Made by a program: the position numbers and the translations under genes. DNA of 64,000 bases from Limibacillus halophilus (GTDB lineage: Bacteria; Pseudomonadota; Alphaproteobacteria; Kiloniellales; CECT-8803), in contig NZ_JACHXA010000001.1 of assembly GCF_014191775.1 (NCBI RefSeq), forward strand, positions 372,001 through 436,000, read 5' to 3'. Below the pieces are notes generated by a model. The model made no database searches. It was not told where the DNA came from and was given only the letters and a program-made list of their open reading frames with translations. This document shows, in pieces, positions 38,910 through 64,000 of the stretch. Position 1 is the first letter of the stretch; each line of letters begins with the position of its first letter.

Positions 38910-39061
38910 AAAAATTTTCTTTGATCCCTTCGGCCTTTATCGCATGATGATAGATGAATGCCTGAGGCGGTGAAAGTCGCTATGGTGCCGTGTTTTCCTG
39001 TTCCAGATATGATCTCGGCGTGTTCTGGGGCCAGGAACCAGAGGAGGAATCAACGCTCAGT

Positions 39062-39766
39062 ATGCATCAGAGAAACGCGGGCACAGCGCCGACCAGACGG
39101 GCCGAACGCAAGGAGGCGACGCGGCAACAGTTGATCGCTGCGACGATCGATTGCATAGCGGCCAGCGGTTTTGCGGAAACGACGCTTTCAAAGGTGTCCG
39201 AGCGCGCTAAGGTCTCCCGCGGCCTGGTCAACTTTCACTTCGAAAGCAAGGATCAGCTGCTGATCGAAACGCTGCGGCATCTCACTCAGGAATACCTGAC
39301 CTTCTGGCGAAGGGCCGTCGAGAAACCGGAGTACAGCCCGGCCCAGCGTTTGGTGGCTTTGATCCAGGCGGATTTTCATCCTCAGGTCTGTAATCGCAAA
39401 AAAATCGCTGTTTGGTATGCCTTTTGGGGTGAGGCGAAATCGAGGCCCATTTACATGGCAATCAGCGCCAAGGCTGACGGCGCTTTCGCGCAAATGTTGG
39501 AGAGCCTTTGTACGCAGATCGTCTTGGAAGGTAAGTATGATGTTGATCCGGACCTCGCCGCCAGGGGATTGCGGTCGCTGATTGACGGACAGTGGCTAGA
39601 GCTTCTGCTGTCTCCGGCAAGTTTTGACCGCGAGCGTTCGAAGCGCTTGTGTCGCCTTTTCGCCCATCAACTCTTCCCGAAGCATATCGATCGGCCAAGT
39701 GCTGAACCCGGTGCGACCTCCACTGATGATGACAGCGACCGCTTGCAGACAGAGGGCGATGGATGA
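39062..39766 (+). CDS. TetR-family transcriptional regulator, BetI-like
   Basis: This 234-residue regulator has an N-terminal TetR helix-turn-helix (RKEATRQQLIAATIDCIAASGFAETTLSKVSERAKVSRGLVNFHF, residues about 16-62) and a C-terminal domain like that of BetI, the choline-responsive repressor. Its stop overlaps the start of the first permease gene (ATGA), so it is encoded in the transporter operon and probably senses the imported amine. ATG 39062 is 15 bases from GAGGAGG, a long spacing, but no other in-frame start is seen. Confidence 0.87.
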   Translation: MHQRNAGTAPTRRAERKEATRQQLIAATIDCIAASGFAETTLSKVSERAKVSRGLVNFHFESKDQLLIETLRHLTQEYLTFWRRAVEKPEYSPAQRLVALIQADFHPQVCNRKKIAVWYAFWGEAKSRPIYMAISAKADGAFAQMLESLCTQIVLEGKYDVDPDLAARGLRSLIDGQWLELLLSPASFDRERSKRLCRLFAHQLFPKHIDRPSAEPGATSTDDDSDRLQTEGDG

Positions 39767-40692
39767 GCGATGTTGCGATGACAAAGCCCGGTCACGGAAC
39801 GCCAAGCGGCCTTCGTCGGCGTTTGAGCCGTTTCTACCGAGCAAGCCAGGCGCTGCGTGGTTTGACCTTGGCTTCACCGGCCCTCTTCGTCGTCGTAACA
39901 CTCCTGGCCATGCCTATCGCGCTGCTGGTCCTTTACAGCTTCTGGACTCAGAACTACGTCGATATCGATACCAATCTGACGACGGCAAACTACGAGAAGA
40001 TTGCTTCCAGAACGATCTATCTGAAGGTTTTTCTGCGTTCGGTGGGAATTTCGGGACTGGTGACGCTGCTCACCGTCCTGTTAGCCTATCCGTTAGCCTA
40101 CTATGTTGCCTTCGATGTGAAGCGCCGCAAGGTTATCTGGCTGATTCTCATAACCCTGCCTTTTTGGACCAGCTATTTGCTCAGGGTTTTCGCCTGGAAA
40201 ATTATCCTGGGTTATGACGGGGTCATTAATTCCGGCCTCGCCTGGCTTGGTGTCATACGAGAACCGCTTGAGTTTTTGCTCTACAACCCGACGGCGGTCA
40301 TCATCACTCTGGCGCACGCCTGGGCTGCCTTCGCCATCCTGCCCATCTACGTATCCCTTGAAAAGATCGACCGTTCTTACCTGGAAGCGGCAACAGACCT
40401 CGGTGATGGTCCGGTTGCCCGGTTCTGGCGCATCACCTTTCCGTTGTCGTTGCCCGGTGTGATTGCCGCCTCGATCGTTATCTTCATACCGACAGTCGGC
40501 GACTATGTGACCCCGACATTGGTGGGCGGTCCGAGCGGGTTGATGATCGCCAATCTGATTCAGACACAGTTTAGCAAGGCCAACGACTGGCCCTTGGGCG
40601 CAGCTTTGGCGGTTGCCTCGATGGTGACCGTGACCTTGATAGCCTGCGCCTTCGTATTGATTGCCAAGAAGCTGACGGAGCGCATCGGATGA
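39763..40692 (+). CDS. ABC transporter permease, PotB-like
   Basis: This 309-residue inner-membrane permease is of the spermidine/putrescine type. Six hydrophobic segments and the cytoplasmic docking loop YLEAATDLGDGPVARFWRITFPLSLPGV are visible. It forms a heterodimer with the next gene product. The start overlaps the regulator stop and its stop overlaps the next start by four bases (ATGA), so all four transporter genes are translationally coupled. The context suggests that the substrate is an amine or betaine and not necessarily a polyamine. Confidence 0.9.
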   Translation: MSDVAMTKPGHGTPSGLRRRLSRFYRASQALRGLTLASPALFVVVTLLAMPIALLVLYSFWTQNYVDIDTNLTTANYEKIASRTIYLKVFLRSVGISGLVTLLTVLLAYPLAYYVAFDVKRRKVIWLILITLPFWTSYLLRVFAWKIILGYDGVINSGLAWLGVIREPLEFLLYNPTAVIITLAHAWAAFAILPIYVSLEKIDRSYLEAATDLGDGPVARFWRITFPLSLPGVIAASIVIFIPTVGDYVTPTLVGGPSGLMIANLIQTQFSKANDWPLGAALAVASMVTVTLIACAFVLIAKKLTERIG

Positions 40693-41507
40693 GTGTCACG
40701 ACTTTCGAGAAAGCAGGACGGCGTTGGCGTGGCGGTTATGCCTTTTTCTATCTGGGCTTTCTCTATGTCCCGGTGCTGTTTCTGCCGCTCTTTTCGTTGA
40801 ACGACTCCATTTACATAGCCCTGCCGCTTAAGGACCTGACGTTCAAGTGGTACGCAACGCTTTGGACGAATGAACAGATGCATGCAGCGCTTGGGAACTC
40901 ATTGAAGGTCGCCGTTACCGCTGCCGTGCTTTCGACGGCCCTGGCCATGTTCGCGGCCCGCGCATTCACCCGCTACAGTTTTCGAGGCCAGCGGCCGGTT
41001 CTGGGCTTGGTCATGCTGCCAATGGTCATGCCGGAGATTATCGTCGGGGTTTCACTGCTGGTGCTGTTTTCGCAGGTCGGGATCGGGCTGGGCCTGCATT
41101 CGGTGGCGGTGGGTCACACGCTCATCTGCCTGCCTTTTGCGGTTGCCGTATTGATGTCCCGGCTCGAAGGGTTCGACAAAAGCTTGGAAGAAGCCTCCCA
41201 GGACTTGGGTGAGACCGGTTGGATGACTTTCTGGCGGGTAACCTTCCCCCTGGTCATGCCCGGTATCGTCGCCAGCCTGCTTTTGACCTTCACGATATCT
41301 TTCGATGAATTCATCATAGCCTTCTTCCTTTCTTCAACCGAAGGCACCTTGCCAGTGTTCATCTGGAGCCAGCTTCGCTTCCCGAATAAGCTGCCGGGTA
41401 CTCTGGCGCTAGGCGCCTTGATCCTCCTCTCCTCATTCTTTGTCGTGGCGCTTGCGGAGTGGGTGCGCCGTCGCGGCAGTGGCATCGGAGGCCAGACACC
41501 CCTATGA
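40689..41507 (+). CDS. ABC transporter permease, PotC-like
   Basis: This is the second permease subunit, 272 residues. Six membrane segments are visible, with the docking loop SLEEASQDLGETGWMTFWRVTFPLVMPGI near residues 160-190. It overlaps the genes on both sides by four bases. Transport direction is import, by family. Confidence 0.9.
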   Translation: MSVTTFEKAGRRWRGGYAFFYLGFLYVPVLFLPLFSLNDSIYIALPLKDLTFKWYATLWTNEQMHAALGNSLKVAVTAAVLSTALAMFAARAFTRYSFRGQRPVLGLVMLPMVMPEIIVGVSLLVLFSQVGIGLGLHSVAVGHTLICLPFAVAVLMSRLEGFDKSLEEASQDLGETGWMTFWRVTFPLVMPGIVASLLLTFTISFDEFIIAFFLSSTEGTLPVFIWSQLRFPNKLPGTLALGALILLSSFFVVALAEWVRRRGSGIGGQTPL

Positions 41508-42631
41508 CAAATCAAACCAGCGACATCACGCGCTTCATCGACATCCAACAAGTCACCAAGAACTTCAGTGCGGTCCGCGCCGTGGACAACGTCGACTTAA
41601 CCATTCGTCGCGGCGAGTTCTTTTCGCTGTTGGGGCCGTCCGGCTGCGGCAAGACGACTTTGCTGCGCATGCTGGCAGGATTCGAAGCGCCCAGTGAAGG
41701 TGAAATCTATATCGACCAACAACCGATGTCGGCGGTTCCGCCACATCTGCGTCCCACGAATATGGTGTTTCAAAGCTACGCCATATTCCCGCATCTGAAC
41801 GTGGGGCAGAACATAGCTTATGGCCTTCGCAAGTTGCGCCTGCCTGCCTCGGATGTCCAAAAGCAGGTTGAGGAGATGCTGGCGCTTATCAAGCTTCCCG
41901 GCTACGCCGAGCGGCGCGCAGACCAGCTTTCCGGTGGGCAGCGGCAGCGGGTAGCTCTGGCGCGCGCGCTGATTCGCCAGCCCAAGGTTCTGCTGCTCGA
42001 TGAACCGCTCGGTGCCCTGGACAAGAAACTGCGCGAACAGATGCAGCTTGAGTTGCGAGAGTTACAGGAGCGGCTAGGCATCACCTTTGTGTTTGTAACC
42101 CACGATCAGGAAGAGGCCCTGACCATGTCGGACCGCATCGCGGTCATGCACGCGGGCAAAATCCTCCAGGTTGCCGACCCGCACGGACTCTACGAACGAC
42201 CCAATTGCGCACGCGTCGCGGCGTTCATAGGCTCGATGAACTTCGCGCCGGCCGAAGTGCGCGGCCTGGAGGGCGACCGGCTGGCGGTTCAGGCCGCGGG
42301 ATTCGGGGCGGTGAACGCTTCGGCCAATGGCCACGCCTGGAATGCTGGCGACAGAATCATGGTGGCCGTGCGTCCGGAGAAACTTGGTCTGACCACCGAG
42401 CGGCCCGAACGCCAGGGCCTGCATTCGGTCAACGGCAAGGTCGCCGCGGCGGCCTACCTTGGCGACCGCAGCCACTACTACGTCAAGCTTGAGGGCGTCG
42501 ACAGTCCCCTGGCGGTCTCTGCGCAGAATGCCGACCGTAGCGTCGAGGGATGGCTCGAAGCCGGCGTCGATGTCTGGGTCACCTGGTCAGATAACGCATT
42601 GGTGGTCTTGCCCGCCGATCAGGACGGGTGA
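41504..42631 (+). CDS. ABC transporter ATP-binding protein, PotA-like
   Basis: This 375-residue ATPase energises the importer. Walker A is GPSGCGKTT (near residue 45), the signature [15 protein letters not shown] and Walker [18 protein letters not shown] domain follows from about residue 280. Length and layout match PotA. ATG 41504 overlaps the PotC-like stop; an upstream in-frame start inside the permease gene is rejected. A two-way terminator lies between this gene and the convergent binding-protein gene. Confidence 0.92.
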
Positions 42632-42711: not shown

Positions 42712-43827
42712 TCAACCGCCCAGCTTAACCGTCTCGAAGATTTCAATCATCTTCTCGCGCTTCTCCGGCACGATCTCACCCTGGAACCGAGTTCCCTTGA
42801 GGAACTTCGTCAGGTCGTCGGTTAGACCAAGCTCCTTGGCCAGATCGGATTCGGAGATCTTGTAGGATTGCGCGTTCGCGTGGCCGTAACCCCATTCATC
42901 GATCAAGACCTTGCCGACGTTCGGGTCCAGCGTGGCATTGAGGTATTCGTAGGCAAGATTCTCGTCACCTGGCCCATCGGCGTTCAGCACGAAACCGCAC
43001 ATCCAGGTCGAGAGGCCTTCCGTCGGGAACATGAACTTGACCGGCACCTCTTCCCAGCGCAGTGAGATGTAGCTGTCCGTCCAGGCCCAGGCCGCGAGAA
43101 TTTCACCAGCGGCGATGGACTGTTGCAATGCCGTCGGGTCGCCCCAGTAGAAGCGGATATTCTTATGTAGCTCGCGCAGCACTTCGGCGCACTTCTGCAT
43201 CTCGTCGTCGCTGAGATCCATGTGGCTTTCGTAGCCCAGGATACCGGCCGCGATGACGAAGGCCTCGTCAACCGAATCGAAGATCGAAACGCGGCCGCGC
43301 AAGGCTGGATCGAGCAAGAGATTGTAGCTCTGCGCTGCGTTAGGCAACTCGTCGTCTCGGTAGATGATGGTGGAATTTCCCCAATCGAAGGGCATCATCC
43401 AAATCTTGCCGTCATGCTGGATGCCCTTGGCCCCCAGCATATCCGAGGGAATCTCGTTCCAACGGGGTACGCGGCTCGTATCAATGGGCTTCAAGAGCCC
43501 GGAATCCCGCCAGCGCGCTACCGAAAGGGTGCAGGGATGAGACATGTCGACCTTGAAGCCAGCGCGCAGCTTCTGGTAGGCCTCCTCTTCCTCGGCAAAG
43601 ATCGCATAGTTGGGCGGCTCGCCGTGCTTATCGACGAACTCTTGGCAGAGCGTCGGATCGTCGTAGCCGGACCATTCAAAGACCGTCAGGTTCGGTGCGG
43701 CGAAAGCGCGCCGCGCGGTTGGCGATGTCGCGACCAGCGTCGCTCCGGCAGCGGCCATGACCTTGCCGAATTCGCGCCGGTTCAAGCCCGCCTTCATCAG
43801 CGCCTGTTGGATGTTTCTCCGTTTCAT
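42712..43827 (-). CDS. Periplasmic solute-binding protein, PotD/PotF-like
   Basis: This 371-residue protein is the receptor of the PotABC-like importer. The N-terminus carries LNRREFGKVMAAAGATLVA, a twin-arginine-like signal, with cleavage near AFA at residue 45. The mature part starts LTVFEWSGYDDPTLCQEFV, with the spermidine-binding-protein pattern MPFDWGNSTIIYRDDEL and WAWTDSYISLRWEEVPVKF. Aromatic residues there could cage an ammonium group, which is inference. ATG 43827 has AAGGAGG at ideal spacing. It is convergent to the potA-like gene instead of in line with it. Confidence 0.88.
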   Translation of the reverse strand: MKRRNIQQALMKAGLNRREFGKVMAAAGATLVATSPTARRAFAAPNLTVFEWSGYDDPTLCQEFVDKHGEPPNYAIFAEEEEAYQKLRAGFKVDMSHPCTLSVARWRDSGLLKPIDTSRVPRWNEIPSDMLGAKGIQHDGKIWMMPFDWGNSTIIYRDDELPNAAQSYNLLLDPALRGRVSIFDSVDEAFVIAAGILGYESHMDLSDDEMQKCAEVLRELHKNIRFYWGDPTALQQSIAAGEILAAWAWTDSYISLRWEEVPVKFMFPTEGLSTWMCGFVLNADGPGDENLAYEYLNATLDPNVGKVLIDEWGYGHANAQSYKISESDLAKELGLTDDLTKFLKGTRFQGEIVPEKREKMIEIFETVKLGG

Positions 43828-43989
43828 CGAAGCCTCCTTCCCTTGCCGCCTATGTGTTGGGTTTGCTGATCTGCTGCTCTTGCCTTTTGTCGGCGGCCCA
43901 TGATGGCAAAAGCTTCCCATAAAGTTGTTTCGTTGTCCAATCGTTCAGTGAAAGGGACGCAATTGGCAGCGCCCGTCGGCTCTTCGTCC

Positions 43990-45192
43990 TTACCCAACTA
44001 GCGCACCCGCACCCCGCTTTGCCAACTGTCCGGCGATAATGATGCGCTGGATTTCACTTGTGCCTTCCCAGATGCGATCGACCCGCAATTCACGGTAAAA
44101 CCGCTCGGCGACGTTCTCGCGCATGTAGCCGCGACCGCCGAATATCTGTACAGCCCTGTCGGCGACCCGGTTTGCCATTTCCGAAGCATAGAGCTTGGCC
44201 ATCGAGCATTGCGCGTGCAGCAACTTCACGTCTTCTCCTGCGTCATGGGCCTCTGCCAGACGATAGGTCATGAGGCGCGCCGCCCAAAGCTCCGTTACGC
44301 TGTCCGCCAGCATGGCCTGGATCAACTGATTTTCGATGACCGGCCGACCGAACGCCTTTCGCTCTTTGGCAAAGCTGCTGGCCTCGTCGATCAGGCGCTC
44401 GGCAGCGCCGCAGCAGCGAGCGGCGATCATGAGACGCTCGTAGCGGAACCAGTCATGCGTGAAGTTCATGCCCTGGCCTTCCCGCCCAATCAGATTCTCG
44501 GCGGGTACCTTCACCGAATTGAAGGCGACCACCGGATGATGGTGGCTATAGGTGTGGCTGTAGGCCGGCGTGCGCAGCACATCGACGCCCTGTGAGTCCT
44601 TGTCGATGAAAAACAATGCGTGGGCGCCATCGTTTGGTCCGCCGTCGATCTTGGCCTGCACAATCAGATGGTCGGCGTGATTGAAACTTGTTACGTGCCA
44701 CTTCTCGCCGTCGATAAAATAGCCGCCGCTGCTCGGTCGCGCCGTTGTACGTATAGCGTCGACATCCGACCCTGCTTCGGCCTCGGTAATCGCATAGCAT
44801 TCGCTACGGTCGCCGCGGATTGTCGGCTCCACCCAGGTTTTCATCTGCTTGGGGGTCGCGGCCTCAACGATACAGCGGGCGGGCGTGGTGACGATCCATC
44901 CCAGGCCGTTGGTCACACGCCCAATCTGCTCGGATACCACTGCCTGTTCGAGGAAGCTCAGCCCGCCGCCGCCCAGATCGCGCGGAATGTTCATTGCCCG
45001 CAAGCCGAGATCGCTGACTTGCCGTTCCAACCGGGCCTGGACGCCGGGCGGAAACTCACCTTCGTGCATCTCCGCATAGATTTCGTGCGGGATCAGCTCC
45101 TGATCCACGAACGTGCGAACGCTCTTCTGTTGCTTTCGGACCGATGCGGGCAAGGGGTATGCCAAGGGCCTTGTCTCCTCAATAATCCACAT
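43990..45192 (-). CDS. Acyl-CoA dehydrogenase family protein
   Basis: This is a 400-residue flavoprotein of the acyl-CoA dehydrogenase family. Family segments are CYAITEAEAGSDVDAIRTTA (FAD and substrate contacts) and, near the C-terminus, FYRELRVDRIWEGTSEIQR with the catalytic glutamate in WEGT. No acyl-CoA ligase or CoA transferase is adjacent, so the substrate's thioester source is unclear. Relatives also act on carnitinyl- or betainyl-type CoA esters or as nitroalkane oxidases. The listed ATG has no ribosome site; TTGAGGAG inside the gene would suit a TTG start at 45165. Confidence 0.9.
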   Translation of the reverse strand: MWIIEETRPLAYPLPASVRKQQKSVRTFVDQELIPHEIYAEMHEGEFPPGVQARLERQVSDLGLRAMNIPRDLGGGGLSFLEQAVVSEQIGRVTNGLGWIVTTPARCIVEAATPKQMKTWVEPTIRGDRSECYAITEAEAGSDVDAIRTTARPSSGGYFIDGEKWHVTSFNHADHLIVQAKIDGGPNDGAHALFFIDKDSQGVDVLRTPAYSHTYSHHHPVVAFNSVKVPAENLIGREGQGMNFTHDWFRYERLMIAARCCGAAERLIDEASSFAKERKAFGRPVIENQLIQAMLADSVTELWAARLMTYRLAEAHDAGEDVKLLHAQCSMAKLYASEMANRVADRAVQIFGGRGYMRENVAERFYRELRVDRIWEGTSEIQRIIIAGQLAKRGAGALVG

Positions 45193-45377: not shown

Positions 45378-46970
45378 ATGAAGCAATGGGACGCCATCGT
45401 CGTTGGGGCCGGTCACAATGGTCTTACGGCTGCGGCTTATCTGGCGCGTGCCGGATTGTCGGTTCTAGTGCTTGAACGCCGGGATATTGTCGGCGGCGCA
45501 GCGGTTAGTGAGGAACGCCACGAAGGATTCCTCTATTCATCCTGCTCTTATGTTTGCAGCCTTCTACGGGCAGAGATCATGCGCGATCTTGAGCTTTCGC
45601 GTTTCGGCTTGCGTATCATTCCCTATGAAAACTCAACAACACTCGGCCGGGATGGCCGCTATGTCGGTTTCTATGCGGACCACGACCGCACGCGGCGCTC
45701 CCTGGCACGACTTTCGCCGCGCGACGCGGAGGCATACGAAACCTTTAACCGGGATATTTACCGACAGTGCCGCCTGATCCGCCCTTTGCTGCTGAAGACA
45801 CCGCCCGACCCGACGTCCATGAAGCCGCGCGATCTCAGGAGACTGCTTGATCTAGGCAGGGCGTTTGGGCAGCTGGGCGAAGATGGCATCTACCAAGCCA
45901 TGCAATTCTGGACCATGAGTTGCGGCGATTTTTTGGACCGCTACTTCGAGTCCGATCTGCTGAAGGGGAGCCTGGCCGGAAACTCCATCATCGGTACCGC
46001 GCTCGGCCCCTATTCGCCCGGCAGTGCCTATGTGTTGCTGCACCACGTGATGGGAGAGTTGGACGGCCATGTTGGGGCCTGGGGCTTTGCGGTCGGTGGA
46101 ATGGGCGCCATCAGCCAGGCGCTCGCCGCCGCCGCCGGGAGTCACGGCGCGGAGATCCGGACAGGAGCGGAAGTCGATCAATTCTTGATCCGTGACGGCG
46201 AGGTTCAAGGCGTGGTCCTTGCCAATGGTGAGGAGATTCGCGCGCGCCACGTTGTCTCAAATCTCGACTTCAAGCGAACCTTCCTGAAGTTGGTGCCTGA
46301 AAAGGAGTTGGCACCCGATTTCCTGGAGGGCGTTCGTAACTTCAAGATAAGGGGTTCCAGCGGCAAGCTGAACATAGCGCTCGACCGGCTGCCCGACTTT
46401 CCGGCGCTGCGCGACGAACCGACCCTCAAGCGCGGTGGCATCATGATCAGCGAGTCCATGGAGTACATGGAACGCGGATACGACGACTGGAAGCGCGGCG
46501 CCTGGTCGAAGAAGCCCTTCCTCGATATCGTTTTGCCTTCCACGCTCGATCCGACCATGGCGCCTCCCGATCAACATTATATGAGCGTCTTCGTGCAGTA
46601 CGTTCCGGCCAAGCTTGCCGATGGCGACTGGACGCCGGAAAAGCGCGATGCTTTTGGCGAGACGGTGCTGTCCACGATCGAGGCCCATTGTCCCGGCATT
46701 CGGGAAAGCATTCTCGATTGTTGGGTGCGCACGCCCTGGGATCTGGAGAATGAGGTCGGCTTGACCGAAGGTAACATCTTTCAGGGCGAACTGACGCTTG
46801 ACCAACTGCTCTTTAACCGGCCGCTGCCGGGTTATGCGCAATACCGAGGGCCGCTGCGCGGTCTTTATATGTGCGGCTCCAGTACGCACCCGGGCGGCGG
46901 TGTCATGGGCGCGCCGGGCGCCAATGCCGCGAGGGAAGTCCTGGTCGATATTGGCCGGAGGGTCGTCTGA
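45378..46970 (+). CDS. FAD-dependent oxidoreductase, PYROXD2/CrtI-like (first of pair)
   Basis: This 530-residue flavoprotein is of the phytoene-desaturase-like amine-oxidase clan. The N-terminal dinucleotide motif is VVGAGHNGLTAAAYLARAG, followed by LERRDIVGGAAVSEE. The C-terminal FAD motif is YMCGSSTHPGGGVMGAPGANAARE. Such proteins oxidise C-C or C-N bonds. The absence of carotenoid genes and the amine-locus context favour an amine substrate. Its stop overlaps the start of a second protein of the same family and exactly the same length (TGATG), so the two are coupled. Confidence 0.88.
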   Translation: MKQWDAIVVGAGHNGLTAAAYLARAGLSVLVLERRDIVGGAAVSEERHEGFLYSSCSYVCSLLRAEIMRDLELSRFGLRIIPYENSTTLGRDGRYVGFYADHDRTRRSLARLSPRDAEAYETFNRDIYRQCRLIRPLLLKTPPDPTSMKPRDLRRLLDLGRAFGQLGEDGIYQAMQFWTMSCGDFLDRYFESDLLKGSLAGNSIIGTALGPYSPGSAYVLLHHVMGELDGHVGAWGFAVGGMGAISQALAAAAGSHGAEIRTGAEVDQFLIRDGEVQGVVLANGEEIRARHVVSNLDFKRTFLKLVPEKELAPDFLEGVRNFKIRGSSGKLNIALDRLPDFPALRDEPTLKRGGIMISESMEYMERGYDDWKRGAWSKKPFLDIVLPSTLDPTMAPPDQHYMSVFVQYVPAKLADGDWTPEKRDAFGETVLSTIEAHCPGIRESILDCWVRTPWDLENEVGLTEGNIFQGELTLDQLLFNRPLPGYAQYRGPLRGLYMCGSSTHPGGGVMGAPGANAAREVLVDIGRRVV

Positions 46971-48562
46971 TGGCGCAATACGACGCAATAATCATCGGTG
47001 GCGGCATCAACGGGCTCGTGACCACGGGATTGCTTCAGAAGGCTGGCCTGTCAACGCTTTTGCTGGAGGCGGGCGGTGGTTTTGGCGGGTTAGCCGCACA
47101 GGTTGATGCGGAAGGACAACCGCAGGCGCCCAGCCTGGCGCAGAGCGGTATGATTTCGCCCTCGGTTTTCCGGAGTCTGAATCTAAGCAGCCAGGGCCTG
47201 AGCGTTCAGCCTGAACGGCTGGATCAGGAATTTCATCATCCAGGCTATGACAGCTTCAGGCTCTTTGCCGGGGACGCGGACCAGCAGCAGGCTGTCATGA
47301 GTCGGTTCAGCCCCAGGGACGCGGACAGGTTGCCGGTCTTCAGAGCGCGGCTTACGCGCTTGGCGTCGGCTCTGAAACCCTTTCTGGAGCGGACGCCGCC
47401 GCGCTTGGCCGAAATGGTGCTCGCGGATCGCCTGGAGCTTTTGCGCTTGGGGGTTTCCCTGAAGCGCCTTGGCCGGGCCGATCTTCGCGATTTTCTGCGG
47501 ATCATAGCCATGAATGAGGCAGACTTGCTCGAAGAAGTCTTTGAATCAGAGGCCGCGCAAAGCCTGTTCGCCTTCGATGGCGTCTTGGGAAATCTCTTCG
47601 GTCCCCGTTCACCCAACACGGTCTTCACGCTCCTTTACCGTTGGGCGACGGCCTTTGATGGCGCAAGCGGTTCGCCTGTGCGGCCGCTTGGCGGCGCACA
47701 CGCCTTGGTTGGCGCGCTGGTGCGCCAGGCGCGCAGCTTGGGAGCCGTTCTGAGGTCCGAAGCCGAAGTCGAGCGCGTGTTGCTTGTCGATGATCGTGCT
47801 GCCGCGGTTCGTCTGACAAGTGGCGAAGAAGTCGGCGCGCCGCTGATCCTATCGAGCCTGCACCCCGGCCGCTCCTGCCTAGATCTTTTGGGTGTCGAGC
47901 ATATGGACGCCGATTGGGTCCGCAATCTGCAGCACGCCCGCGGGCGTGGGGTCAATGCGGCGTTGACTCTTTCGCTTGCCGGCCTGCCCGAGACCGAGGG
48001 AAGCGCTGCTGGATGGCTGCGCCGCCGCTTTGTGTTTGCCGGCGGTATCCGAGCACTGGAGGCGGCTCACGACAGCGCAAAGTATGGCGAGCTGCCTGAT
48101 GATCCGCCTTTCGAAGCGAGCGTATCCACAGGCGAGAAACCCGGGACGTTCCGCATGCAGGTGACGGCGCAGTACTGCCCGGAGAACCTCAAGGTATCCA
48201 GTTGGCAGCAAGAGGGAGAGAAACTTCAGAGATCGATCCTCCGGCGCCTGGAGGAGGCCTATCCAGGCTTCAATGCCTGTGTCGAAGGCGTCAGGATGCA
48301 GACCCCGTCGGATTTGGCTGCGTCCTACGGTTTACCCGGCGGTCACTGGCATCATCTCGAACTGGGGCTCGATCAGATCTATCTTCTGCGACCCCTGCCC
48401 GGTTGGGGTCAGTACAGCACGCCAGTCGAAGGGTTTTTTCTCTGCGGGGCCGGTTGCCATCCAGGCGGCGGATTGCAAGGCGCCGCTGGCGCCAACGCAG
48501 CCCATCGGGCGCTACTGCACCACAAGGCCCGGAACAAGACACTACGCGCAAAAGGAGGTTGA
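46970..48562 (+). CDS. FAD-dependent oxidoreductase, PYROXD2/CrtI-like (second of pair)
   Basis: This is the second 530-residue member of the pair. It has the FAD motif IIGGGINGLVTTGLLQKAG and C-terminal FLCGAGCHPGGGLQGAAGANAAH, so cofactor binding should be kept. The region after the first motif differs from its partner (GGFGGLAAQVDAEGQPQAP), where most relatives have VGGAAVSEE-like sequence. The two could form a heteromer with divided roles. The GcvT-like gene starts 1 base after its stop. Function is inferred from neighbours only. Confidence 0.86.
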   Translation: MAQYDAIIIGGGINGLVTTGLLQKAGLSTLLLEAGGGFGGLAAQVDAEGQPQAPSLAQSGMISPSVFRSLNLSSQGLSVQPERLDQEFHHPGYDSFRLFAGDADQQQAVMSRFSPRDADRLPVFRARLTRLASALKPFLERTPPRLAEMVLADRLELLRLGVSLKRLGRADLRDFLRIIAMNEADLLEEVFESEAAQSLFAFDGVLGNLFGPRSPNTVFTLLYRWATAFDGASGSPVRPLGGAHALVGALVRQARSLGAVLRSEAEVERVLLVDDRAAAVRLTSGEEVGAPLILSSLHPGRSCLDLLGVEHMDADWVRNLQHARGRGVNAALTLSLAGLPETEGSAAGWLRRRFVFAGGIRALEAAHDSAKYGELPDDPPFEASVSTGEKPGTFRMQVTAQYCPENLKVSSWQQEGEKLQRSILRRLEEAYPGFNACVEGVRMQTPSDLAASYGLPGGHWHHLELGLDQIYLLRPLPGWGQYSTPVEGFFLCGAGCHPGGGLQGAAGANAAHRALLHHKARNKTLRAKGG

Positions 48563-48563
48563 T

Positions 48564-49721
48564 GTGGAACCGCCAGTTCTCAAGCGGACACCCTTCCACG
48601 CGCGTATCGCGCCACTCAATCTCCTCAATGCCTGGGAACCCTGGCAAGGCTGGACGACGGCCAGCGTGCTCTATTCGGAGCAGGACGAGTATTTTGGTAT
48701 CCGGACCGGCGCCTCGCTCTATGACGTATCACCGATGATCAAGTATCGGCTGACCGGACGTGATGCGGCCCGGGTCGTTGATCGCATCATGACGCGTGAC
48801 ATATCCAAGCTGATGCCGGGTCGGGCGGCATACAGTCCTTGGTGCGACGGCAAGGGCCGGGTGATCGAGGAAGGTACGATTTTCCGCCTGGGAGAAAATG
48901 ATTTCCGGATCAATTGCGCCGAACATCTGCTGACATGGTTCGAGGCGTCGGCTTGGGGTTTTGACTGTCAGGTGCGCGACGAAAGCGACGAGATCGCGGG
49001 ATTGGCCCTGCAAGGGCCTCTTTCGCGCGCGCTCTTGCAAGACCTGGGTTTGGAAGGCGCCGCAAGTCTTCCTTACCTCGGGTTAGAGCGCTTCGACTTT
49101 GGCAGCCATGGAATCTTGGTCAGCCGGACCGGGTTTACCGGAGATTTGGGATATGAACTCTGGGTGGCGCCGGAAGATGCCCTCGCCCTTTGGGATCGCA
49201 TCATGGAGATGAGGCACCGCCGCTACATTCGGGTTATAGGCGCAAGGGCCTTGAATACGGCCCGTATCGAAGCTGGCCATATTCAGGTTCGTGCGGAGTA
49301 CGTACCCGCACATCTTGCTGTACGTGAGTCGCAGATGCGCAGCCCCTATGGGCTGGGTTTGGGTTGGGCGGTGCACCTGGAAAAACCGCATTTCAACGGC
49401 CGTCGTGCGCTGATCAAGGAACGGGCAAAGGGCGGTCCACCCAAACGCTTGGTTGGGATCGATATCCAGGGCCGCAAACCCGCAGACGGCGCTTACTTGT
49501 ATGATGGGAAAAGAGAAGTCGGTCAGGTTACCTCCGCCACCTGGTCGCCGGTTCTCAAACGCAACATCGCGTTGGCAACGGTCGATGCCGCTTTTGCAAC
49601 CCCGGGCACGATGTTGAGCGCTGAGATTTACTACGTGAAAGAGATTACCCAGGCGAAGGTGGAAGCATCGGTAAGGGTCGTGGATCACAGATTCTATCAG
49701 CCGGATCACCGACGGCTTTGA
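48564..49721 (+). CDS. GcvT-like aminomethyltransferase family protein
   Basis: This 385-residue protein has the GcvT fold: an N-terminal folate-binding domain and a C-terminal barrel. Segments are YDVSPMIKYRLTGRDAARVVDRIMTRD, LALQGPLSR, ILVSRTGFTGDLGYELWV and a final SATWSPVLKRNIALATVD. Relatives pass C1 units from glycine, sarcosine, dimethylglycine or dimethylsulfoniopropionate to tetrahydrofolate. Here it would accept methyl or methylene groups released by the neighbouring oxidoreductases. The start is GTG 48564, with AAGGAGG at 5 bases. Confidence 0.9.
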   Translation: MEPPVLKRTPFHARIAPLNLLNAWEPWQGWTTASVLYSEQDEYFGIRTGASLYDVSPMIKYRLTGRDAARVVDRIMTRDISKLMPGRAAYSPWCDGKGRVIEEGTIFRLGENDFRINCAEHLLTWFEASAWGFDCQVRDESDEIAGLALQGPLSRALLQDLGLEGAASLPYLGLERFDFGSHGILVSRTGFTGDLGYELWVAPEDALALWDRIMEMRHRRYIRVIGARALNTARIEAGHIQVRAEYVPAHLAVRESQMRSPYGLGLGWAVHLEKPHFNGRRALIKERAKGGPPKRLVGIDIQGRKPADGAYLYDGKREVGQVTSATWSPVLKRNIALATVDAAFATPGTMLSAEIYYVKEITQAKVEASVRVVDHRFYQPDHRRL

Positions 49722-49774: not shown

Positions 49775-51826
49775 ATGACCCGCGACCCTCGTTACGATGT
49801 GCTTTTTGAGCCGGTTCGGATCGGGCCCTTGACGGCGCGCAATCGCTTCTACCAAGTGCCACACTGTTCAGGTATGGGAAGGGCTTGGCCTCAAGCATTG
49901 GCAGCTATGCGGGCCATGAAGGCCGCGGGCGGCTGGGCCGTGGTGAATACCGAATACTGTTCCATCCATCCCTCATCGGACGACACGCCCTACCCTTACG
50001 CCAGTCTTTGGGATGCGGGCGATGTGCGGGCCAATGCGCGGATGACCGAGGCCGTTCATGATCAAGGAGCGCTGGCCGGCGTAGAGCTGTGGCATGGCGG
50101 AAACTATGTGGGGAATCTCGCAAGCCGCGAGCCGCCTATCGATATTATGAGTCTGCCTTCCCGTACCGATCCGGTGCAGAGCCGGGTTCTTTACAAGGAC
50201 GATATACGCGCTCTGCGGCGCTGGCACAGCGACGCCGCCAAACGCGCCGTCGAGGCTGGATTCGACCTTGTTTACGTCTATGCGACCCACGCCTACTTGC
50301 TTGATCACTTTCTTTCACCGGTGAGCAATCAAAGAACGGATGAGTACGGGGGCTCCCTGGAGAACCGCGTGCGCATCCTCCGCGAATTGCTCATTGAAAC
50401 CCGTGAGGCCATCGGCCCGGACCGTGCCTTGGCGGTGCGCTTCACGGCGGCGAATCTGGGAGGAAAAGGCGCCCCGACCGAAGAGCTGCGCGAGATGCTG
50501 TCGATCCTTGGGCCACTAGCAGATATCTGGGATTTGGTGGTGGATGACTACACGCTGGAGATGGGTAGCTCCCGGTTCGTCGAGGAAGGTGCGCAAGAAT
50601 CATACTTGGCGGGCCTGCGTCAGTTGCTCGGCAAGCCCGTGGTCGGCGTGGGTCGCTTCACCTCGCCGGACACCATGGTCGGCATGGTAAAACGCGGCGT
50701 CCTGGATTTCATCGGCGCGGCGCGCCCCTCGATCGCCGACCCTTTCTTGCCGCGCAAGATCGAGGAAGGTCGGTTAGAGGAGATTCGCGAGTGTATTGGC
50801 TGCAACATCTGTTATGCCTCGAACTCGCGCGGCAACCCCATTCGGTGCACGCAGAATCCGACGATGGGCGAAGAGTGGCGAAGTGGCTGGCACCCTGAAC
50901 AGATTGAACCCGCCGGCTCCAAGGATTCCATTCTGGTCGTCGGGGCGGGGCCCGCCGGGCTGGAGGCCGCCGTCGCCTTGGCGCGTCGCGGTTATGCGGT
51001 GACCTTGGCCGAAGCTTCCGACACCCTTGGCGGGCGGGTTACCCGCGAAAGCCGCTTGCCGGGCCTCGCGGCCTGGGGACGGGTACGCGATCATCGTTTG
51101 GAACTGATGAAGGGGCTGCCGAACCTGCAAGTCTATCCGGCGAGCCGCATGAGTGCGGCGGATGTGCTTGGATTTGGCGCGCCGGTGGTGGCACTGGCCA
51201 CGGGGGCGGCGTGGCGACGTGACGGCATCGGCCGACTGCACCGTGCGCCGCAGCCTGGGTTCGACTCGGCGGCCGTTTTGACGCCGGACGACCTGATGTC
51301 ACCTGAGGTCCCCGACCTGCCACCCGGTCCTGTCGTCATCTATGACGATGACCGCTATTACATGGCGGCGGTGTTGGCCGAGAAGCTCGCTCTTGGAGGG
51401 CGGGCGGTAACGCTTGTGACAACGGGTGGGACGGCTGCCGCCTGGGCCTATTTCACCGAGGAGCTGGATCGGACCAACGCGCGTTTGTTATCGCTAGGCG
51501 TGACGCTTCGCACCAGCAGCGCCGTTGTGTCCTTCGATGGCGCGGGTGCGGAGGTGTCTTGTCTCTTCTCCGATCGTCGAGAAGTATTGGCCGCTGTCGG
51601 GCTTGTGACGGTAACGGCACGCAGCCCGGAGGATTTACTCTATCGGCAGCTTATCCAGAACCCGGCGGCGTTGCGGGACTCGGGGATCAGGTTGCTGCAG
51701 CGGGTCGGTGATTGTCTGGCGCCGGCGCTGATCGCCCATGCGGTACATGCGGGGCATAGGTTCGCCCGGGAACTCGATGCATCCAAGCCCTGGGACGCCG
51801 CAAGACGTGAGCTAGCCGCCCCATGA
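49775..51826 (+). CDS. Trimethylamine dehydrogenase/DgcA-like iron-sulfur flavoprotein
   Basis: The 683-residue protein aligns closely by eye with bacterial trimethylamine dehydrogenase. An FMN barrel starts RYDVLFEPVRIGPLTARNRFYQVPHC, with Cys30 matching the residue that binds FMN covalently. Tyr60, Tyr169 and His172 also match known active-site positions. A [4Fe-4S] motif is at C340, C343, C346 and C358, followed by an ADP/FAD-binding domain (VVGAGPAGLEAAVALARRG). The two tryptophans of the trimethylammonium bowl are not seen, so the substrate probably differs, perhaps dimethylglycine or another N-methyl amine, as for DgcA of Pseudomonas. Confidence 0.9.
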   Translation: MTRDPRYDVLFEPVRIGPLTARNRFYQVPHCSGMGRAWPQALAAMRAMKAAGGWAVVNTEYCSIHPSSDDTPYPYASLWDAGDVRANARMTEAVHDQGALAGVELWHGGNYVGNLASREPPIDIMSLPSRTDPVQSRVLYKDDIRALRRWHSDAAKRAVEAGFDLVYVYATHAYLLDHFLSPVSNQRTDEYGGSLENRVRILRELLIETREAIGPDRALAVRFTAANLGGKGAPTEELREMLSILGPLADIWDLVVDDYTLEMGSSRFVEEGAQESYLAGLRQLLGKPVVGVGRFTSPDTMVGMVKRGVLDFIGAARPSIADPFLPRKIEEGRLEEIRECIGCNICYASNSRGNPIRCTQNPTMGEEWRSGWHPEQIEPAGSKDSILVVGAGPAGLEAAVALARRGYAVTLAEASDTLGGRVTRESRLPGLAAWGRVRDHRLELMKGLPNLQVYPASRMSAADVLGFGAPVVALATGAAWRRDGIGRLHRAPQPGFDSAAVLTPDDLMSPEVPDLPPGPVVIYDDDRYYMAAVLAEKLALGGRAVTLVTTGGTAAAWAYFTEELDRTNARLLSLGVTLRTSSAVVSFDGAGAEVSCLFSDRREVLAAVGLVTVTARSPEDLLYRQLIQNPAALRDSGIRLLQRVGDCLAPALIAHAVHAGHRFARELDASKPWDAARRELAAP

Positions 51827-51859: not shown

Positions 51860-52645
51860 ATGAGTGGTCAGCATGAGGAAGAGTACAGCGATAGCCTGAT
51901 CGATTTCCTGGAGGTGGTTTGGGGCGAAGGCTACCTCTCTCCGGGCGGTGGCGAGGAGGTCTCGCGGATTCTGGAAGGCCTGTCTCTTGCTGGTCGGCGT
52001 GTGCTGGATATCGGATGCGGTTCGGGAGGAATCGCGATGGAGTTGGTAACTCGCTATGCGGCGGGGGCTGTCGTCGGGATTGATGTGGAAGCCGGCGTTC
52101 TCAAACGCGCAGAGACACGCATTGCCGCCGCTGGCCTTGCCGACCGCATCACATTGCGCAAGGTGGCGCCTGGACCGCTCCCATTCAAAGAGACGGCTTT
52201 CGATATCGTTTTCAGCAAAGACTCGATGATCCATATACCAGACAAGGAGGCCCTTTTTGCCGACGTCTTCCGGGTCCTCAAGCCCGGCGGTTGGTTTGTT
52301 GCCAGCGACTGGCTCATCAGTCACGACGGCGAACCATCGGACGACATGAAAGCCTACGTAGCACTGGAGGGCTTGAGTTTTGGCATGGCCTCTCCGCAGC
52401 GCTATGCCAAAGCGCTCGAAAGCGCCGGGTTTGTCGAGGTTGCGCTCAGCAATCGGAATGCCTGGTACCGATCGGTGGCGGAGCGCGAGCTATCCGCCAT
52501 CGCCGGGGAGCTTTACGGACCGGCCTGCGAGGCGGCGGGCCGGGAAACGGTCGATCACAACATTCGAACCTGGGAATCGATGCTGAAAGTCCTGCGCAGC
52601 GGCGAACATTGCCCGCACCACCTGCGCGCTAGGAAACCAGCCTAG
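51860..52645 (+). CDS. SAM-dependent methyltransferase, phosphoethanolamine-methyltransferase-like
   Basis: This is a 261-residue class I methyltransferase with SAM motif VLDIGCGSGGIAMEL. The flanking GYLSPGGGEEVSR and VFSKDSMIHIPDKEALFADVFRVLKPGGW strongly resemble phosphoethanolamine N-methyltransferases, where the tyrosine of YLS and the Asp and His of the second segment contact the substrate. Whether the substrate here is phosphoethanolamine or another amine cannot be decided. It lies 33 bases after the TMADH-like gene, an odd place for a methylating enzyme within a demethylating locus. Confidence 0.86.
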   Translation: MSGQHEEEYSDSLIDFLEVVWGEGYLSPGGGEEVSRILEGLSLAGRRVLDIGCGSGGIAMELVTRYAAGAVVGIDVEAGVLKRAETRIAAAGLADRITLRKVAPGPLPFKETAFDIVFSKDSMIHIPDKEALFADVFRVLKPGGWFVASDWLISHDGEPSDDMKAYVALEGLSFGMASPQRYAKALESAGFVEVALSNRNAWYRSVAERELSAIAGELYGPACEAAGRETVDHNIRTWESMLKVLRSGEHCPHHLRARKPA

Positions 52646-52667: not shown

Positions 52668-53882
52668 TCAGTCCTGATAGTGCTCGCGGTCCAGCTTTGC
52701 AAGTTCGCCGGGGGCCGGAGGCTCCGGCAATCGGGAACCAGGAACGGCTTCATGTATCAAGTCATGGAAATGCCGAACCGAGGTTTCGTATTCCGACAGG
52801 GGGCCGAGTTCGTATCCGTGACTTCCCAAGCCTTGCTGCACGCGGTGACAAAGCTGAAAATCCTCCGCGGCGACCTGACCGTTTATTCGGCCATTGAGGT
52901 AACGAAGCGCGCGCATCTCCCGGCGGCTATCGGCGTGGCCGTAAACCAAGGTTCGGACTTTCGAACGCTTCGGGCCGAGCGGAAGGATCTGGAAGAAATC
53001 CACACAGTCCGGATAGACGTCGATTCCGAGATTGGGCGGCATGGAAAAGAACATCCAACGTTTGGCGCGCTCGCCGGACAGGTGTGACAAGGCTTTGCCT
53101 GATAGCGCCTGATAGTGACGTTCGCTCCAGTTGGATGAGGGCCGATCTTTCATCCGCGATATCGAATAGGCCACACCGTGGGCGTTCGCTTCGCCCAACA
53201 GGTCATTGTCCAGCATACGGTGATATCCGGGGTGGCCAATTGGAATGTGGTAGTTTTCAAGATTGTTGTCGATTGCGACCTTCCAGTTGACCTCCCAAAT
53301 ATCTTCCCAGCTTTCCTCCAGCCGTTCCATGCTGGGAATGTCGTAGGGCGCCAGCAATTTGGCGAAGTCACCCCATATGTCGGCGACGCTGGGCCCACCT
53401 TCGGGATCATCGGCGGCGGCGACACGCACGAAGATGAAGCCGTGCAGTACCTCAAGGTCGACCTGACGCAAGCCGTGATCTTCTTTCACAAGCCCAGGGA
53501 AGCTGGCCTCGGACGGCACTGCCGCGAGGCGGCCGTCGAGGCGATAGTTCCAGCCATGATAAGGGCAGATGATCCGCTTTTTGCAGCGGCCTTCTCCCTC
53601 CAGCAGCTTGGAGGCGCGGTGCCGGCAAACGTTCTGGAACGCACGCAAGGCGCCGGTCTCATCGCGTACGATCAGAATGCTGTCGCGCATTAGTTGCAGG
53701 GTGAAATAGCTGCCGGGGGCGGCCACGTCGGAAACGTGACAGGCAATCTGCCAGGACGGTAGGAGCACGCGCTGGTACTCAAGCTCCAGCATCTCGGCGT
53801 TGCCATAGGTCCAGGCAGGCAGCCCGGCCCTCAGCGGCGTATCGTTTTCCGCTTCCGGCTTAAGCTCCTCATCGTATGACAT
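52668..53882 (-). CDS. Rieske oxygenase alpha subunit, choline monooxygenase/GbcA-like
   Basis: This 404-residue ring-hydroxylase-type oxygenase has a Rieske cluster with C86-x-H88 and C106-x2-H109. Its mononuclear iron site is in DNNLENYHIPIGHPGYH (His212, His217, with Glu209 at the position of the bridging acid). The glutamate instead of aspartate and the overall pattern match enzymes acting on quaternary amines (choline, glycine betaine, carnitine, stachydrine) better than aromatic dioxygenases. No reductase gene is adjacent. The divergent promoter region carries palindrome CAAACGTTTG and an ATTGAACAAAC element. Confidence 0.88.
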   Translation of the reverse strand: MSYDEELKPEAENDTPLRAGLPAWTYGNAEMLELEYQRVLLPSWQIACHVSDVAAPGSYFTLQLMRDSILIVRDETGALRAFQNVCRHRASKLLEGEGRCKKRIICPYHGWNYRLDGRLAAVPSEASFPGLVKEDHGLRQVDLEVLHGFIFVRVAAADDPEGGPSVADIWGDFAKLLAPYDIPSMERLEESWEDIWEVNWKVAIDNNLENYHIPIGHPGYHRMLDNDLLGEANAHGVAYSISRMKDRPSSNWSERHYQALSGKALSHLSGERAKRWMFFSMPPNLGIDVYPDCVDFFQILPLGPKRSKVRTLVYGHADSRREMRALRYLNGRINGQVAAEDFQLCHRVQQGLGSHGYELGPLSEYETSVRHFHDLIHEAVPGSRLPEPPAPGELAKLDREHYQD

Positions 53883-62690: not shown

Positions 62691-62693
62691 GGC

Positions 62694-63170
62694 TCAGGCT
62701 CCCCTCATCTCGGCGGCGGTGTCGAGAACCGCACGGATAATCTTGTCATAACCGGTGCAGCGGCAAAGGTTGCCGGCAAGCCAGTAACGGACCTCGGTCT
62801 CCGTGGGGTCCGGATTGCGTTCCAGCAATGACTTCGCCGCAACAAGGATGCCCGGCGTACAGATGCCGCATTGCAAGGCAGCATGCTCCAGGAATTTGCT
62901 CTGCAGCGGATGCAGGGTATCGCCGTCGGCGACACCCTCGATGGTGCCGATCTCGCGCCCGTTCACCTCCGCTCCCAAGACCAAGCACGAACAAACCAGG
63001 CGTCCGTCCAGCGTCACGCTGCAGGCGCCGCAGTCGCCGGTGCCACAGCCTTCTTTGCTGCCGGTCAGGTTGAGGCGGTTGCGCAGAACATCGAGCAAGG
63101 TCTCGTCCGGCTCGCAGAGAAACTCCACCACGTCGCCATTGATTGTTGTAGAGACAGTCATCTGCTTCAT
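62694..63170 (-). CDS. Molybdenum hydroxylase [2Fe-2S] subunit
   Basis: This 158-residue small subunit carries two [2Fe-2S] clusters. The plant-type motif is GCGTGDCGACSV with a fourth cysteine in RLVCSCL, and the second is LQCGICTPG with AGNLCRCTGYDKI. It passes electrons from the molybdenum centre to the FAD subunit. Its start overlaps the FAD-subunit stop at 63170 by one base. The length is normal for the separate-subunit type. Confidence 0.94.
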   Translation of the reverse strand: MKQMTVSTTINGDVVEFLCEPDETLLDVLRNRLNLTGSKEGCGTGDCGACSVTLDGRLVCSCLVLGAEVNGREIGTIEGVADGDTLHPLQSKFLEHAALQCGICTPGILVAAKSLLERNPDPTETEVRYWLAGNLCRCTGYDKIIRAVLDTAAEMRGA

Positions 63171-64000
63171 TACTTTGCCCTCGCGCGTTCGTAAGCTATC
63201 AGTGCGGCGCGGCGCGTCAGAACGCCCGCGACTTTGATCCGAAATTCTTTGGTGCCGCGCTTGTCATCAATTGGCCTACAGGCTGCAGAGGCCGCTTTCG
63301 CAAGCTTTTCCAACGCGGCCGCTTCCAGGCTCGTGCCAATGATGGCCGCTGCGGCTTCCTCGACCAACAAGACCTGTGCGGCGACCGCGCCCAACGCAAC
63401 ACGCGCAGATGCGACCCGCCCGTCATCATCCAACGAAAGGCTGACGCCTGAACCCACAACGGCGATATCCATCTCCGTGCGTGGAATGAACCTCAAGTAG
63501 GCATCGCCTGAATGCGGGGGACGGCCAGGCAAGAACAGCGATGTCACAAACTCGCCCTTCTTCAGCGATGTCTTACCGGGCCCGGTGGGCACCTCTTCCA
63601 CAGGAACATCGCGTTCACCCTCGGGCCCTGCGATCCGCGCAAGGGCGCCAGCGGCAATCAGCGCGGGAACGCTGTCGGCAGCTGGCGAGGCATTGCAAAG
63701 GTTGCCGGACATGGTGGCGCGCCCCTGAACCTGGGTCGAGCCGATCAGGCCGGCGGCCTCCACGACCCCCGGCCAGAGCGCAATCAGGCCTGCGTGCTCA
63801 TTTAACTCCGCGCCGCTGACCGCCGCACCGATCCGGTAGCCACCATTTTCCTTGCGAATGTCGTGCATTCCGTCGATGCGCTTCAGATCGACAATGAGGT
63901 CGGGTTCGAAGCGTCCTGACCGGAGTTGCACCAGAAGATCGGTGCCCCCAGCCAATACACGGGCCATACCCGCTTCGGCCGCCAAGAGTTTGACGGCTCC
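63170..64000 (-). CDS. Molybdenum hydroxylase FAD-binding subunit, 5' end outside window
   Basis: 277 residues are present, and the open frame continues through the right edge (GAVKLLAAEAGMARVLAGGTDLL), so roughly the first 20 residues are missing. FAD contacts AGGTDLLVQLRSG and TMSGNLCNASPAADSVPALIA are typical of the medium subunit. It takes electrons from the FeS subunit. Gene order FAD-FeS-Mo-MoaD on one strand forms a single operon, whose promoter lies outside the window. Confidence 0.92.
   Translation of the reverse strand, partial: GAVKLLAAEAGMARVLAGGTDLLVQLRSGRFEPDLIVDLKRIDGMHDIRKENGGYRIGAAVSGAELNEHAGLIALWPGVVEAAGLIGSTQVQGRATMSGNLCNASPAADSVPALIAAGALARIAGPEGERDVPVEEVPTGPGKTSLKKGEFVTSLFLPGRPPHSGDAYLRFIPRTEMDIAVVGSGVSLSLDDDGRVASARVALGAVAAQVLLVEEAAAAIIGTSLEAAALEKLAKAASAACRPIDDKRGTKEFRIKVAGVLTRRAALIAYERARAK

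Follow-up and report, generated by a model that had tools for sequence, protein, structure and literature searches.

The flavoprotein and its family

The window analysed here, a stretch of 64,000 nucleotides of Limibacillus halophilus (contig NZ_JACHXA010000001.1, positions 372,001 to 436,000), carries genes for a Pot-type importer, a Rieske oxygenase and several flavoproteins, among which a protein resembling trimethylamine dehydrogenase (TMADH) is the main subject of this report. Its open reading frame (ORF) at 49775-51826 on the forward strand, with exactly the bounds first assigned to it, starts with ATG and encodes 683 amino acids, the product giving domain matches to PF00724 and to nucleotide-binding domains. 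In phmmer searches, E-values of 1.5e-161 against TMADH (1djn) and of 3.8e-210 against histamine dehydrogenase (HDH, 6de6) were obtained, and the homology deduced from them is far above chance. The closest solved relatives by sequence are HDH (6de6 and 3k30), the 6-hydroxypseudooxynicotine (6-HPON) amine oxidase HisD (6l6j) and TMADH, with identities over aligned columns of 50.5% for both HDHs, 47.2% for 6l6j and 45.8% for TMADH (568 columns), and of 49% (HDH), 46% (6l6j) and 42% (TMADH) in the structural alignment. An AlphaFold2 model, built on 45 sequences from the window and its homologous loci (designated by L numbers; the L102 row was excluded from the alignment), reached a mean predicted local distance difference test (pLDDT) score of 92.2. 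The superposition on TMADH suggested in the original prediction was carried out as a fold alignment, which matched the model over its full length to HDH 3k30 (Z 56.4, 675 residues) and TMADH 2tmd (Z 56.3, 678 residues), each with a root-mean-square deviation of 1.7 Å; the next matches, 1djq (Z 55.8), 6de6 (Z 55.5) and 6l6j (Z 55.4), are effectively tied. As modelled, the protein adopts the TMADH/HDH fold from end to end. It is a full-length member of the TMADH/HDH iron-sulfur flavoprotein family and represents a new variant within this known family.

Residues are numbered from Met1 of the protein, and those of TMADH by that enzyme's own numbers. In the alignment, TMADH Cys30, Tyr60 and Trp105 correspond to Cys31, Tyr61 and Trp106; Tyr169, His172, Tyr174 and Arg222 recur as the same residues at the same numbers. 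Cys30, Tyr60, Tyr169 and His172 had originally been placed at identical numbers in both enzymes; all four residues are indeed present, but the first two are displaced by one position. Cys31, at the position of 6-S-cysteinyl flavin mononucleotide (FMN), and the putative [4Fe-4S] cysteines 340, 343, 346 and 358 are all kept. Tyr169 and His172 of the catalytic Tyr-His-Asp set are present, and Glu262, another acid, replaces the aspartate. In two family members (L107 and L110), the catalytic Tyr169 is replaced by Asp and His172 by Phe. TMADH Tyr442, which we take to be part of that enzyme's contact with electron-transfer flavoprotein (ETF), is Arg436 here, so that ETF docking may differ from that of TMADH; Arg is likewise found in HDH, in 6l6j and in 89 of the 90 homologues outside the clade described below.

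An apparently rebuilt substrate pocket

The trimethylammonium bowl of TMADH consists of Tyr60, Trp264 and Trp355. In the present protein, Tyr61 is kept, Tyr259 stands for Trp264, and Trp355 falls into a gap. As the original prediction had stated, the Trp264 segment, which contains TLEMGSSRF, falls short of its TMADH counterpart by three residues, and ASNSRGNP is the sequence of the Trp355 segment. The change of the Trp264/Asp267 segment is real in length, but the residues aligned with these two are still an aromatic one and an acid. Aromatic residues at the bowl positions, which were sought as evidence contrary to that prediction, are present at two of the three (Tyr61 and Tyr259). The clade further has Tyr347 and retains the equivalents of TMADH Trp105 and Tyr174, and a lack of the bowl is not supported. 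The original observations are thus confirmed in part, and so is their interpretation: the cofactor and catalytic residues are retained and the substrate site differs in the alignment, and a substrate other than trimethylamine is likely.

Residue counts were made on the 119 rows that had 550 or more residues aligned, leaving out a 367-residue piece in L011 as well as L072 and L088, for which ORF calling required a stop codon, and retaining the identical row pairs L017/L090 and L039/L099. The three extra residues before Trp264 and Trp355 itself occur in only two of the 119 homologues, L115 and L116, which share the TMADH loop and group with TMADH in both trees; the other 117, the protein of the window included, have neither, and the same is true of the solved HDHs and of 6l6j. 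Judged from these alignments, the shortened segment and the absence of Trp355 are the norm for nearly all relatives, with TMADH as the exception, and the loss of Trp355 should not be read as special.

In a quick maximum-likelihood tree of 123 rows, the protein falls into a set of 29 rows with a support of 99 in the Shimodaira-Hasegawa-like approximate likelihood ratio test (SH-aLRT), nested in a set of 33 rows with the same support. A second tree (67 rows, mixture model) with more close relatives and an outgroup kept this core (26 rows, 98) and gave weaker support (82) to a wider set of 29 rows. In the 29 core rows, which include the window and one identical pair, Tyr61, Trp106, Tyr259 and Glu262 are each found in 28, Tyr174 in 27 and Tyr347 in all. 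The other 90 rows have mostly Glu or Gln at position 61 (81 rows), Trp259 (84), Asp262 (83), Val or Ile at 347 (83) and Glu75 (77). Among the groups compared, the clade retains a larger part of the bowl than do HDH and the majority of the remaining relatives. Because the protein belongs to a supported clade with a near-invariant aromatic set, the bowl looks rebuilt rather than absent; this set suggests a cage for a methylated nitrogen, which would close over the flavin. Since positions 73, 75 and 111 are variable within the clade (Arg111 in 15 of 29 rows), it probably holds more than one substrate. Tyr61, Trp106, Tyr174, Tyr259, Glu262 and Tyr347 together provide a sequence mark for one clade of TMADH-like proteins, for which "FAD-dependent oxidoreductase" and "NAD(P)-binding protein" are often the only annotations. 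In eight loci (L009, L015, L024, L025, L037, L057, L065 and L190), the gene with tyrosine at TMADH position 60 adjoins one or two TMADH-like paralogues, mostly with glutamate at this position (Glu60 type). L072 also falls into the clade, and L088 belongs with the Glu60-type proteins.

In comparison with TMADH (1djn/2tmd), the protein shares the fold, the cofactor residues and the counterparts of Tyr60, Trp105, Tyr169, His172 and Tyr174, but it differs in Trp264, Asp267 and Tyr442 and in the missing Trp355 and insertion. With HDH from Nocardioides simplex (3k30) and Rhizobium sp. (6de6) it has in common the fold, the cofactor cysteines, the Tyr/His pair, the short 264 segment and the lack of Trp355. 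As given in the available excerpt of a published study, the proposed histamine site comprises Gln65, Ile74, Phe77, Glu79, Asn115, Tyr181, Trp267 and Asp358 (PMC10180351). In the alignment, Gln65, Ile74, Phe77 and Glu79 of this set become Tyr61, Asp70, Tyr73 and Tyr75; Asn115, Trp267 and Asp358 become Tyr111, Tyr259 and Asn350, and Tyr181 is kept as Tyr174, so that Gln65, Glu79, Asn115, Trp267 and Asp358 of the excerpted set are all unmatched. The amine oxidase 6l6j is alike in fold, but Ala occupies the position of the FMN cysteine, and positions 60 and 264 are Glu and Trp.

Gene neighbourhood

The TMADH-like gene lies in a cluster of transport, regulatory and catabolic genes (Table 1). The GC content of the cluster (0.58-0.63, compared with 0.60 for the window) gives no sign of a foreign origin.

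Table 1 Genes of the cluster around the TMADH-like gene
Product	Position	Strand	Remarks
TetR regulator, BetI-type C-terminal domain	38990..39766	+	Scores 115.5 bits with one BetI model (cut-off 118) and 115.9 with the other (cut-off 201.3)
PotB-like permease	39763..40692	+	Named by position beside PotC/PotA; 37-66% matches in related clusters
PotC-like permease	40689..41507	+	
PotA-like ABC ATPase	41459..42631	+	Start uncertain, overlaps PotC ORF
PotD-like periplasmic binding protein, altered ligand site	42712..43920	-	
Acyl-CoA dehydrogenase family protein	43990..45192	-	56% match in L155 only, next to TetR and PotB
CrtO1, first CrtO-like FAD protein	45378..46970	+	
CrtO2, second CrtO/phytoene-desaturase-like FAD protein	46970..48562	+	ORF from 46871; inferred ATG at 46970 overlaps CrtO1 stop
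Stand-alone GcvT-like aminomethyltransferase	48564..49721	+	Inferred GTG start (ORF from 48273)
TMADH/HDH-family flavoprotein	49775..51826	+	Oxidored_FMN barrel, [4Fe-4S] cysteines, nucleotide-binding domains; main subject
S-adenosylmethionine-dependent methyltransferase	51860..52645	+	72% match adjoining TMADH-like gene in L008
Rieske oxygenase alpha subunit	52668..53882	-	150 bits against GbcA cut-off of 670

The PotD-like protein was compared with E. coli PotD at positions that we take to form the polyamine ligand site. Here, Trp34, Tyr37, Trp229, Trp255, Tyr293 and Glu171 are kept, and Glu36, Asp168 and Asp257 are replaced by Gly, Ser and Cys, respectively. Gly36, Cys257 and the absence of Asp168 are shared by all 14 further proteins that match at 30% or above, one of which (in L020) adjoins a relative of the Glu60 type. 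The L015 protein has Tyr34 and Phe229; in L157, a protein of lower similarity has Asp36 and still carries Asp257. Loss of the acids together with retention of the aromatic residues would fit a methylated ligand carrying a single charge more readily than a polyamine.

The Rieske protein has carnitine monooxygenase CntA as its best solved match, followed by 3vca, which is listed as a ring-hydroxylating dioxygenase and which we take to be the stachydrine demethylase Stc2. Both CntA and Stc2 belong, according to the available excerpt of a published source, to a Rieske group acting on quaternary ammonium compounds (PMC10952381). For the GcvT-like protein, the best solved match is the C-terminal part (residues 404-757) of trimethylamine N-oxide (TMAO) demethylase (9q59), but in the window it is encoded by a separate gene beside flavoproteins. 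This protein has Glu at the position of T-protein Asp96, a functional residue of that protein, as do those of L188 and L158, and Asp is found in the remaining nine aligned clusters. The acyl-CoA dehydrogenase gene is a possible member of the cluster. Further downstream, at 60447-63985, molybdenum hydroxylase genes of the xanthine dehydrogenase/CO dehydrogenase type are located.

Elsewhere in the 3.5 Mb genome, one pair of ETF genes and six MttB-family genes at six places were found. Because of these six genes, the organism likely has other routes for the demethylation of methylated amines, and they suggest a specialist in such compounds. Two more flavin-oxidoreductase homologues of the same genome (L002 and L003, C3:350637-354261), one with an in-frame TAA, adjoin an MttB-family gene at C3:354313-355806 (L183). 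An MttB-family gene and the TMADH-like gene are also divergent neighbours in L019 and L063, and in L078 a few genes separate the two; the Pfam scan behind this covered L063.

To follow the neighbourhood across genomes, genes around the TMADH-like gene were counted in 80 homologous loci (the best 80 of 589 related stretches), 29 from the wider clade and 51 others, among which L072, a clade member of 3 kb, was placed; neighbours such as PotA were counted at matches of at least 45%, and ten features were tested. PotA-like genes occur near 16 of the 29 wider-clade loci compared with 2 of 51 others (p 2.5e-7), and BetI-like TetR genes near 11 compared with none (p 3.3e-6). PotB/C-like genes are present in 15/29 compared with 3/51 and PotD-like genes in 9/29 compared with 1/51. 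When only loci of at least 12 kb are considered, the numbers are 14/25 and 2/39 for PotA and 10/25 and 0/39 for TetR. A GntE-like aminotransferase showed no association with the wider clade (1/29 and 2/51, p 1). As the clade descends from a single ancestor and contig ends truncate many of the loci, these p values serve as a guide only.

Proposed function and alternatives

The evidence tips slightly towards a flavin-dependent N-demethylase that removes one methyl group from a tertiary (dimethyl) amine in the catabolism of an imported quaternary amine. In the pathway proposed, the Pot-type importer would take up the quaternary amine and the Rieske oxygenase would strip its first methyl group. 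The TMADH-like enzyme would then remove the second, converting a tertiary into a secondary amine, with electrons passing from FMN via the [4Fe-4S] cluster to ETF. Subsequently, the CrtO pair and GcvT may strip the third methyl group, GcvT moving the one-carbon unit onto tetrahydrofolate (THF), and a class III aminotransferase, where present, could remove the freed amine. The scheme gives no step to the methyltransferase. The order of the steps, the substrate and the electron acceptor are what we infer here; the enzyme classes and residues are those that the sequences indicate. This function is supported by the fold, the catalytic and cofactor residues, the aromatic set of the clade, its association with Pot and TetR genes, the Rieske and GcvT matches, the changes in the PotD-like protein, the gene set on a Parasedimentitalea marina plasmid (described below) and the single ETF pair. 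Methylated amines account for an important share of marine dissolved organic nitrogen, as stated in the available excerpt of PMC13390433.

Several points weigh against it. Family membership alone does not mean N-demethylation, since two of the enzymes in the family, HDH and 6-HPON amine oxidase (6l6j), take their names from other amines. The replacement of Asp267 by Glu262 lowers the odds slightly, and so do departures at position 61 beyond the counted rows, Phe in L120 and Trp in L072; moreover, the geometry of the cage is itself a prediction from sequence. Rieske genes are not enriched near the wider clade (5/29 compared with 6/51, p 0.52), and the signals for CrtO (3/29 and 0/51, p 0.044), GcvT (5/29 and 2/51, p 0.092) and the methyltransferase (2/29 and 0/51, p 0.13), among ten features tested, are weak. 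The clade is also a single lineage, and its counts are therefore not independent. Finally, of the 18 distinct CrtO1 loci just 6 contain a TMADH-like gene of this type (L120 by residues, not by tree), which means that the triad of two CrtO genes and GcvT can do without it.

A deaminating amine dehydrogenase that acts like HDH, without removing an N-methyl group, is the strongest competitor: the best solved sequence matches are the HDHs 6de6 and 3k30, and 6l6j is also close. We regard this as unlikely, however, with the published HDH residues Gln65 and Glu79 replaced by Tyr61 and Tyr75, with Glu75, carried by 77 of the 90 other rows, missing from the clade, and with a GcvT-like protein encoded at the locus. 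Proteins of the GcvT class handle one-carbon units. Distinctly unlikely, too, is a working trimethylamine or dimethylamine dehydrogenase with a bowl of Tyr61, Trp106, Tyr259 and Tyr347. Two of three bowl positions are aromatic, and the TMADH states Tyr61, Asp70, Trp106 and Tyr174, which most other relatives do not have, are all present, but Trp355 and the insertion at 261-263 are absent, the clade is separate from TMADH in both trees, and the use of free trimethylamine would not obviously call for an importer, a binding protein and a Rieske oxygenase as neighbours. The Pot-type importer might instead point to a methylated polyamine or diamine, in line with adjoining agmatinase-type and glutamine-synthetase-type genes in L065, agmatinase-type matches (31%) near clade members in L193 and L194, and a class III aminotransferase of the PRK07036 family in L065, L120, L151 and L152. 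Such a substrate is improbable in view of the binding protein, which is without three of the four polyamine-binding acids, like the 14 other matched proteins.

The protein could also be the organism's dimethylglycine dehydrogenase, equivalent to DgcA, and kinship with DgcA had been proposed for checking at the outset. In the available excerpt of PMC12093977, glycine betaine is degraded by GbcAB (Rieske) and DgcAB, followed by SoxBDAG for the third demethylation, DgcA being an NADH:flavin oxidoreductase-domain protein that acts after the Rieske enzyme and DUF3483 a domain reported for DgcB. By inference, the present cluster would resemble this excerpted route in its Rieske step, its NADH:flavin-oxidoreductase-type step and a third demethylation; in the scheme proposed here, however, the third step is assigned to the CrtO pair and a separate GcvT. 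DgcA-type proteins turned out to be distant: seven encoded at five DUF3483 loci are just 27-31% identical, and the three placed in the tree form a very long separate branch, the comparison resting on identities for seven proteins and on tree position for three. Pseudomonas loci L055 and L056 were considered as DgcA as well, but HisJ/HisQ/HisM-type transport genes adjoin L056 and the loci were not used as such. A search of the window's genome gave no DUF3483 match and no GbcA-family match above the cut-off, its four Rieske proteins scoring well below. A DgcA equivalent is accordingly most improbable. For the favoured N-demethylase acting on a tertiary amine, the cluster already contains the parts (binding protein, oxygenase and flavoproteins) that suffice for direct substrate testing.

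The CrtO-CrtO-GcvT triad

CrtO1 was found at matches of at least 50% in 30 loci, found through TMADH-like or CrtO1 matches and thus not a random draw; after removal of 11 short copies of places already covered by longer loci or by the window, and with L017 and L157 representing the same place, 18 distinct loci remain by hand count, of which L158, L159 and L163 belong to one genus and L160 and L161 to another. Where the stretch reaches far enough, the second CrtO gene is present in 16/16 and the GcvT-like gene in 14/14 loci. Pot-type genes accompany 10 of the 18, TetR 13, a class III aminotransferase (one of two kinds) 10, Rieske genes 6 and the methyltransferase 4. The constant core is therefore the CrtO-CrtO-GcvT triad, which the TMADH-like gene often accompanies. 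The fullest gene sets are those of a Parasedimentitalea marina plasmid, L008, L157 and L190, the plasmid of P. marina combining all gene types of the cluster except the methyltransferase and the acyl-CoA dehydrogenase within 20 kb. In L188, from a genome of the same family, CrtO1 (79%), CrtO2, GcvT (71%) and the TMADH-like gene (73%) follow the gene order of the window, with an ATP-grasp CoA-ligase-type gene between GcvT and the TMADH-like gene.

The triad may represent a THF-linked secondary-amine demethylase of a new type. For the locus as a whole, we suggest, tentatively and with more doubt than for the enzyme, an aerobic system not described before that would demethylate a quaternary amine completely, step by step, and that occurs in at least two orders of Alphaproteobacteria as well as on plasmids. 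It would combine a Pot importer with an acid-poor aromatic site, a Rieske oxygenase, the tyrosine-caged TMADH-like enzyme, a two-subunit CrtO-like demethylase with separate GcvT and a final transamination. A description of the cluster was not found among open-licence papers, searched mostly by titles and abstract starts, which is weak evidence of absence; the idea of homarine catabolism likewise found no backing there, as none of the titles and abstract starts named genes for homarine degradation. The papers searched had no bearing on a possible link of CrtO1 to human PYROXD2, and this idea was dropped.

The triad (45378-49721 in the window) was also observed on plasmids of Rhizobium, Shinella, Fuscovulum and Parasedimentitalea; seven plasmid records carry CrtO1 at 57% or above, of which four were covered. 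An "NADH:flavin oxidoreductase" beside the Shinella triad (L152) is only 28% identical to the TMADH-like protein and lies outside its clade. On the plasmid of Rhizobium SL42 (L151, 4239-8751), the cluster is adjoined by a set of desaturase, MocE-type ferredoxin, oxidoreductase and inositol dehydrogenase genes, which resembles a rhizopine locus.

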